This document shows, piece after piece, positions 9,646 through 14,240 of a stretch of 33,084 bases of DNA (position 1 is its first letter; each line of letters begins with the position of its first letter). The notes beneath the pieces are model-generated. The model was not told the DNA's origin, did not search any database, and saw nothing but the letters and a program-made list of their open reading frames with translations. The position numbers were made by a program, and so were the translations under genes. This stretch comes from Candidatus Saccharimonadota bacterium (GTDB taxonomy: Bacteria; Patescibacteriota; Saccharimonadia; Saccharimonadales; UBA4665): positions 1 to 33,084 of the forward strand of contig JAGQNT010000145.1 of the NCBI GenBank assembly GCA_020427965.1, read 5' to 3'.

Positions 9646-9662
9646 GTTTCATCCGTATCTGT

Positions 9663-9668
9663 TAAAAT
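9663..9668 (+). promoter_or_regulatory. Extended -10 before the structured leader of tRNA-Ala
   Basis: TG-T-TAAAAT predicts transcription from about 9673-9676, exactly where the outer stem of the predicted RNA begins. Confidence 0.5.
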
Positions 9669-9672
9669 ATGG

Positions 9673-9808
9673 TCTGTCTTTTTGTTAGTCAATCGACCAA
9701 ACCAGGGAGCGAAGTCGACCGTTTGGGCGATTGGGAGGACGACCGTAGCTACAAGTCGAAGCTTTTGCAGTAATCTGCAAAACGAGACAGAAGCGTACGG
9801 GAGGACGA
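9673..9808 (+). ncRNA. Candidate structured RNA upstream of tRNA-Ala
   Basis: This 136-nt intergenic stretch folds by eye into a closed multi-branch RNA. P1 pairs TCTGTCTT (9673-9680) with GAGACAGA (9784-9791). P2 pairs CAATCGACCAAAC (9690-9702) with GTTTGGGCGATTG (9721-9733), 12 of 13 pairs. P3 is CGAC/GTCG (9740-9743/9755-9758). P4 is TTTTGCAG-TAAT-CTGCAAAA (9763-9782). The motif GGGAGGACGA occurs twice, at 9733-9742 and 9799-9808, the second ending exactly where tRNA-Ala begins. An extended -10 sits just upstream, so the RNA and tRNA-Ala are probably one primary transcript. No start codon follows the Shine-Dalgarno-like GGGAGG motifs. I do not recognise it as RNase P, tmRNA, SRP or 6S RNA. 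Confidence 0.55.
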
Positions 9809-9885
9809 GGGGATATAGCTCAGTTGATTAGAGCGCTACGCTGGCAGCGTAGAGGTCGAGGGTTTGAGTCCCTCTATCTCCACCA
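9809..9885 (+). tRNA. tRNA-Ala (anticodon GGC)
   Basis: The cloverleaf is complete: acceptor GGGGATA/TATCTCC contains the G3-U70 wobble pair that identifies alanine tRNAs. The anticodon stem CTACG/CGTAG holds loop CTGGCAG, giving anticodon GGC. CCA is encoded (9883-9885). It follows a structured leader with no gap and is followed by a terminator. Confidence 0.95.
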
Positions 9886-9890
9886 TGAGC

Positions 9891-9916
9891 AGCCAAACTA
9901 ACAGTTTGGCTGTTTT
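9891..9916 (+). terminator. Terminator after tRNA-Ala
   Basis: AGCCAAACT-AAC-AGTTTGGCT is a perfect 9-bp stem followed by GTTTTTC. Confidence 0.88.
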
Positions 9917-9958
9917 TCTTTATTGGCGGTACAATAGATATACCAATAGGGAGGAAAG

Positions 9959-11235: not shown

Positions 11236-11268
11236 ACGAAATTCGTGGTATTGGTACCGGGTTGTTAA

Positions 11269-11366
11269 AAGAGCCTTGTGTCCCCCGGGGACTCATTATT
11301 GATTTGTTCGGCTCCGCCGAAACGCTCTTCAGCCTCTTGCAATCACGAACTGAGCTAAAGAGCCAC
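11269..11366 (-). pseudogene. Scrambled partial copy of tRNA-Phe
   Basis: On the minus strand this begins like tRNA-Phe: the first 19 nt (11348-11366) equal 11219-11237. It reaches a degenerate anticodon arm (AGAGGCTGAAGAGC) and then departs into a perfect hairpin TTCGGC-GGA-GCCGAA and a GTCCCC/GGGGAC stem. It ends with a stretch that is the reverse complement of tRNA-Phe: 11269-11285 pairs perfectly with 11185-11201 over 17 bp. A direct 5' half joined to an inverted 3' half is hard to get by simple duplication and recalls template switching. It cannot form a functional tRNA. Confidence 0.6.
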
Positions 11367-14071: not shown

Positions 14072-14077
14072 TACAAT
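14072..14077 (+). promoter_or_regulatory. Extended -10 before the broken tRNA-Gly copy
   Basis: TG-C-TACAAT lies 22 nt before the broken copy, which is therefore probably still transcribed. The intact tRNA-Gly has its own -10 (TATAAT, 14257-14262). Confidence 0.5.
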
Positions 14078-14094
14078 TTTCCGAGTAGATTTAC

Positions 14095-14124
14095 ATTATG
14101 CGGGTTTAGCTCAGTTGTTTAGAG
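14095..14124 (+). repeat. Direct repeat: tRNA-Gly 5' half, copy 1
   Basis: All 30 nt are identical to 14274-14303: five flanking bases and the acceptor strand plus D-arm of tRNA-Gly. Confidence 0.95.
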
Positions 14125-14240
14125 TGAGATATGCCGGCGGCATATTGCAAGGGAATCTTCTGATGGCAACTGGTTGCCAATCGCGAAGTTCCGGGGTCGC
14201 GGAACGTGACCATCCTTGCCAGGCCAAGGAGGCGCCCAAT
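14100..14240 (+). pseudogene. Broken tRNA-Gly copy with three-hairpin insertion
   Basis: It starts as a perfect copy of the tRNA-Gly acceptor strand and D-arm (14100-14124). Then about 86 nt are inserted, containing three perfect hairpins in a row: ATATGCC-GGC-GGCATAT, TGGCAAC-TG-GTTGCCA and GTTCCG-GGGTCG-CGGAAC. After them comes CATCCTTGCC (14211-14220), identical to the 5' side of the tRNA-Gly anticodon arm (14306-14315), followed by an altered 3' side. The T-arm and 3' acceptor strand are missing. It may be a decayed duplicate or a stable structured RNA with a tRNA-like 5' end. Confidence 0.6.

Follow-up and report, generated by a model that had tools for sequence, protein, structure and literature searches.

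A dispersed, covarying RNA family that abuts tRNA and tmRNA genes of Patescibacteria, mainly Saccharibacteria

What is the structured RNA that lies between a promoter and the tRNA-Ala(GGC) gene in this genome of Candidatus Saccharimonadota? The window, which is the whole stretch of 33,084 nucleotides that was analysed, contains six tRNA genes, with tRNA ends set by ARAGORN, and tRNA-Ala(GGC) directly follows the candidate RNA, as had been proposed from the letters alone. The promoter placed ahead of the fold by the original prediction was found by eye as an extended −10 (Table 1), which is not among the sites listed by a sigma-70 scan; its form CTGTTAWAAT also precedes other Saccharibacteria tRNA genes. 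The structured leader element is referred to here as E. The intrinsic terminator behind tRNA-Ala makes a one-tRNA transcript likely, so that E, as read from these signals, looks like nearly the entire leader of a single-tRNA transcript.

Table 1. Positions in the window of E, its parts and the neighbouring signals.
Feature	Position	Strand	Basis
Extended −10 (TG-T-TAAAAT), predicted	9660-9668	+	By-eye sequence reading; start predicted near 9675
E, whole structured leader	9687-9808	+	Match to covariance model R1, 120.7 bits, E-value 8.8e-30, this copy being one of the 21 sequences used in building R1
P1 hairpin, with CA bulge and inner stem	9690-9702/9721-9733 (9690-9733)	+	Every pair covaries, 104 copies
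AGGA, near-invariant	9736-9739	+	Column counts 103, 98, 101 and 104 of 104
P2-P4 arm	9740-9803	+	Covariation; minimum-energy fold
P2	9740-9747/9796-9803	+	Part of P2-P4 arm
P3	9748-9750/9792-9794	+	Part of P2-P4 arm
P4a	9755-9757/9786-9788	+	Part of P2-P4 arm
P4b, UAAU loop	9763-9770/9775-9782	+	Part of P2-P4 arm
GACG and one variable base, at tRNA −1	9804-9808	+	GACG near-invariant; zero spacer in 81/97 tRNA-5' copies
tRNA-Ala(GGC)	9809-9885	+	ARAGORN and Rfam
Intrinsic terminator of the tRNA transcript	9887-9919	+	0.4 expected by chance in the region

The predicted fold of E has a free energy of −43.2 kcal/mol with z = −3.9, equalled by none of 200 shuffles, and that of the longer fragment 9673-9808 has z = −2.8, equalled by one of 200. 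The arm with 12 of 13 pairs and the 8-bp arm with a UAAU loop, both described in the original prediction, are present as P1 and P4b. From 5' to 3', E consists of P1, a short purine link holding the near-invariant AGGA, P2, P3/P4, and GACG with one variable base, followed by the tRNA. In the minimum-energy fold of E, AGGA lies opposite GAC with a single G-C pair and a 2x2 loop, so that P2 can run on to the tRNA junction through this pair and the tandem G.A mismatches on either side of it. The outer stem that had been proposed to close the fold exists in this copy, as an 11-nt complementarity seen only in the fold of the longer fragment, but is not a conserved feature; the mean longest complement in 97 homologues is 4.96 compared with 4.79 ± 0.11 in shuffled sequences.

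A DNA search of 60 related genomes has shown that the leader, beyond the tRNA alone, recurs several times within some genomes, and reading of these loci places this RNA in front of tRNAs for Lys, Val, Arg, His, Gln, Ser, Leu, Gly, Glu and Met. Twenty-one copies of E were aligned (A1), and the covariance model R1 was built from E alone, with no tRNA sequence in it. R1 gives 91 matches in 20 of the 60 relatives. Of 295 genomes belonging to the same order (Ca. Saccharibacteria), 66 have a match, as do 16 of 380 genomes across the sampled phylum, eight of which lie outside the order; a few matches below about 35 bits may be false. The number of copies per genome ranges from 0 to 14, and the named records carrying E are mostly Candidatus Saccharibacteria. 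Within the window, E is the only match. The genome of the window has 4 matches and 44 tRNA genes, G101 has 13 and 38, and the incomplete G028 has 12 and 24. Most of the genomes are metagenome assemblies, that of the window comprising 244 contigs with 8.3% contamination, and the family is also present in the single-contig genomes G070, G155, G317, G352 and G498. Rfam 15, applied to E at gathering score and weakly to an E-value of 10, returned nothing credible but tRNA, and no description of E was found in the open-access literature searched. E is thus a member of a dispersed, strongly covarying and previously uncatalogued RNA family of ultra-small Patescibacteria, mainly Saccharibacteria. None of the known families tested fits it, which is a statement about family membership and not about demonstrated function.

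In A1, 23 of 40 pairs show changes on both sides, and the covariation score is 0.38 compared with 0.12 for shuffled alignments and at most 0.09 for slid structures, independently of model fitting. In an alignment of 104 copies (A2), which is fitted to the model and in which the slid controls nonetheless collapse, 91% of cells pair and double changes occur at all 40 pairs, with 883 double-change cells compared with 230 expected from shuffles. These compensatory changes beyond the controls make E a conserved structured RNA. In agreement with this, the covariance search with homologues that had been suggested as a check finds such changes in P1 and throughout the P2-P4 arm, and the claim of a new structured RNA in a tRNA transcript holds. 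On the tRNA-sense strand, G.U pairs outnumber A.C mismatches by 129 to 52, and by 53 to 11 within P1, an excess that indicates, at the level of sequence, that selection acts on the sense RNA of E.

The middle base pairs of P1 vary freely with compensation and the CA bulge is conserved, and P2 keeps its pairing across copies with variable sequence. In the sequence class of the window, P3/P4 reads GUCGAAGC...CGAGAC around UUUUGC/GCAAAA; divergent classes carry other hairpins in its place, some with CUUG tetraloops. Other pairs (AGUGA/GAACU) replace AGGA/GAC in the divergent copy G049:C1, and minimal copies (L182, L171 and L177) have just a plain hairpin on either side of an AGAGGA-like link. Among the copies of G049 and of G028 are some whose P2 arms are nearly identical but whose P1 middle pairs differ, with compensation, as if P1 had been renewed separately from the rest of E.

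When 136 copies were read, 97 lay at a tRNA 5' end, covering 18 isotypes, most with zero spacer (Table 1) and the rest within 4 bases (a spacer of 1-4 nt in 15). Five copies abut tmRNA, 10 are inverted against a tRNA 3' CCA end, 15 are separated from the tRNA by a gap, in many cases because E adjoins a degenerate or intron-containing tRNA copy, and 9 lie elsewhere. Since R1 contains no tRNA sequence, this placement is not built into the matches. The proposed tie to tRNA-Ala stands as adjacency at this locus but not as specificity. The GACG end always points toward the tRNA, in tRNA-5' and inverted 3' copies alike, and the inverted copies mostly read GACG-T-GG, which is E against the complement of CCA. 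Two G032 loci have the order tRNA, inverted E, direct E, tRNA, and G049 holds direct and inverted copies with near-identical P2 arms. The neighbours of the few copies away from tRNA genes look by eye like ordinary genes, and a protein-coding partner was rejected. One such copy (L249:4520-4642, minus strand, G044:C38) is followed immediately by a ribosome-binding site and an Hsp20-like ORF in place of a tRNA. The tRNA-Met behind E is interrupted by a group I intron (RF00028, 74 bits) in L204 (G108), and in L042 (G033:C1) by an insert that appears to hold another complete tRNA-Met.

The decamer GGGAGGACGA, to which the original prediction drew attention, has exactly two occurrences in the window (9733 and 9799), but is not a conserved repeat: of the first, homologues retain AGGA alone, and of the second GACG alone, the remainder being variable, base-paired P2 strand. 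The GGGAGG cores are likewise not conserved as such, with GAGAGGAC, GAAAGGAA and GAGAGGAG as alternatives, and only AGGA is near-invariant. Pairing of GGGAGG with the anti-Shine-Dalgarno sequence, or its recognition by a GGA-binding (CsrA-like) protein, is hardly credible. AGGA could pair with UCCU, but the GGAGG form is not kept, the second occurrence consists of P2 strand and GACG, and AGGA opposite GAC closes a helix in the minimum-energy fold; the anti-Shine-Dalgarno idea found no support. Since the family is multi-copy on 18 isotypes and tmRNA, its conservation does not point to ribosome sequestering or to GGA-protein binding.

The exact junction raises the possibility that E serves the host as a cis-acting leader of RNase P substrates, governing the rate or condition of tRNA and tmRNA maturation; its closed structure would prevent misfolding with the tRNA, stack on the acceptor stem and be bound by a protein or RNase P. 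tRNA and tmRNA have little in common save 5' processing by RNase P, and both have E next to them, in most cases without a spacer; the strong covariation, the sense-strand G.U bias and the near-invariant AGGA/GACG at the junction are also in favour of such a role, which we regard as a serious but lesser possibility. The 10 inverted copies at tRNA 3' ends, the genomes of the order in which E is undetected, which are the majority, the orthologous tRNA genes without E and the 4 matches among 44 tRNA genes in the genome of the window argue against it. The compact fold with near-invariant bases clustered at the junction would also suit a putative cis-acting ribozyme that cuts at its own 3' end to free the tRNA. 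However, RNase P RNA is present (in 55 of the 60 relatives), 15 copies have a spacer of 1-4 nt, inverted copies have no adjoining tRNA sense strand, minimal two-hairpin copies exist and no Rfam ribozyme matches, and so a ribozyme is very improbable. The presence of RNase P RNA also means that E is no substitute for RNase P, an idea that was rejected.

The sequences of E group by genome and not by tRNA identity. For 33 of 87 copies the nearest neighbour comes from the same genome, compared with 4.8 expected, and for 6 of 87 it is on the same isotype, compared with 6.6 expected; isotype-specific regulation was rejected because there is no isotype signal. Gene conversion between copies would also produce likeness within a genome. 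In one genus, E precedes tRNA-Leu(CAG) in G168 and is absent from six congeners. At tRNA-Glu(CTC) of one genus, E is full in one genome, degenerate-looking in two and absent in another, and the E-less genome has the promoter and leader start in common with an E-bearing one (one pair). In the one comparable pair of empty and filled sites (L233/L231), whose flanks have diverged, no target-site duplication is seen.

These observations lead to the hypothesis, to which we give about an even chance, that E is a small dispersed element targeted to tRNA ends, which is transcribed as the leader of the pre-tRNA and which RNase P presumably cuts away. Fold, selected strand, exact junction, dispersal within genomes irrespective of tRNA identity and presence or absence at corresponding tRNA genes were computed for E, and we infer that dispersal is by active transposition and that a mobilising machinery recognises tRNA ends. 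E would spread through patescibacterial genomes, mainly those of Saccharibacteria, and insert next to tRNA and tmRNA genes so that its GACG end meets the end of the gene. At the usual site, between promoter and tRNA, it would be transcribed as the 5' leader of the pre-tRNA and fold into the P1 hairpin and the P2-P4 arm, with a GA-rich base ending at nucleotide −1. Insertion may be tolerated because host RNase P presumably removes E from the pre-tRNA. Inverted copies, patchiness and indifference to tRNA identity are the reasons for preferring a dispersed element over a maturation leader. Sense-strand selection and the near-absence of E away from tRNA and tmRNA genes would suit a host function equally well.

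Several results weigh against a dispersed element, namely the strong selection on the RNA, the failure to find a mobilising gene, the lack of terminal inverted repeats (the ends of E are not inverted repeats of each other in A1 and A2), the lack of a target-site duplication in the pair compared and the lack of E in the viral, phage and plasmid collections searched. IMG/VR pattern scans, strict and for typical forms only, and blastn against phages and plasmids gave no E, and a phage or plasmid origin was rejected; pattern matches in Stutzerimonas are due to chance, with no model match. RAYT-like genes occur in 9 of 20 E-bearing genomes and in 4-5 of 40 other relatives. The 20 RAYT-like loci show no match to E even at an E-value of 10 or below and carry palindromes of their own, and so a RAYT/Y1 transposase was rejected as the mobiliser. 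These Y1 transposase genes (L211-L230, about 205-237 aa) often have a matching short palindrome, such as AGGTCCGTCCT, on both sides. A bolder version of the dispersed-element hypothesis, which we consider rather unlikely, is that E is what can be seen of a selfish element of a new kind, which moves, perhaps via an RNA intermediate, when its 3' end becomes attached to the end of a tRNA-like molecule or gene in either orientation, and which rides on pre-tRNA transcription and RNase P removal.

E resembles several known systems. REP/BIME sequences (RAYT, TnpA-REP) are likewise short non-coding hairpins dispersed in one genome, sometimes as inverted pairs, but E lies at tRNA and tmRNA ends with one fixed end, and the RAYT-like genes here are flanked by other palindromes. 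MITEs share small size, non-autonomy, multiple copies and patchiness, whereas the two ends of E differ (CAAAA.. and ..GACG), target duplication was not seen and the RNA fold is conserved across genera. Eukaryotic tRNA-targeted retrotransposons, such as Ty3 and Dictyostelium TRE, place themselves precisely beside tRNA genes of many isotypes. E does so too, but is bacterial, gene-less and non-coding, about 120 nt long here and about 80-145 nt in the family, is part of the tRNA transcript and is found at the 3' end as well, in inverted orientation. T-boxes are structured leader RNAs connected with tRNA that sit before aminoacyl-tRNA synthetase or amino-acid genes and end in a terminator/antiterminator, whereas E precedes the tRNA itself, with no terminator before it and no Rfam match. 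Isotype-specific recognition of the T-box type was not found in E, whose sequence ignores isotype and has no T-box match.

The tRNA/tmRNA placement suggests that E is either a small mobile element which seeks out tRNA genes or a novel type of tRNA leader. No Rfam bacterial RNA family, nor any found in the open-access papers searched, is the immediate leader of tRNAs of nearly all isotypes and of tmRNA. If mobile, E would be a case of targeting to tRNA ends in bacteria, which is best known from eukaryotic retrotransposons; a functional E would mean that the leader of a pre-tRNA can be an elaborate, conserved RNA. Either reading adds to the little-known RNA biology of ultra-small, host-dependent Patescibacteria, and E provides precise junctions and a covariance model for testing.

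Two other stretches near tRNA genes of the window deserve mention. A second candidate RNA family, with no Rfam match, is found at 14073-14240 (also L252-L257), just upstream of an intact tRNA-Gly. There, a site resembling a promoter and 25 nt that repeat the tRNA-Gly 5' end exactly are followed by TGAG..GCAAGGGAATCTTCT-hairpin-GAAGTTCCGGGGTCGC..GTGACC. Its core is fused to tRNA-Pro 5' pieces in G046; in G044, G048 and G016 it follows intact tRNAs and is fused to 3' pieces of tRNA-Met, -His and -Trp. An exact pattern detects it in 5 of the 60 relatives compared with 0 for a reversed control pattern. At 11236-11364 on the minus strand, upstream of tRNA-Phe, there is a degenerate copy of the 5' part of that tRNA, within which 11267-11285 is antisense to its anticodon/variable region.
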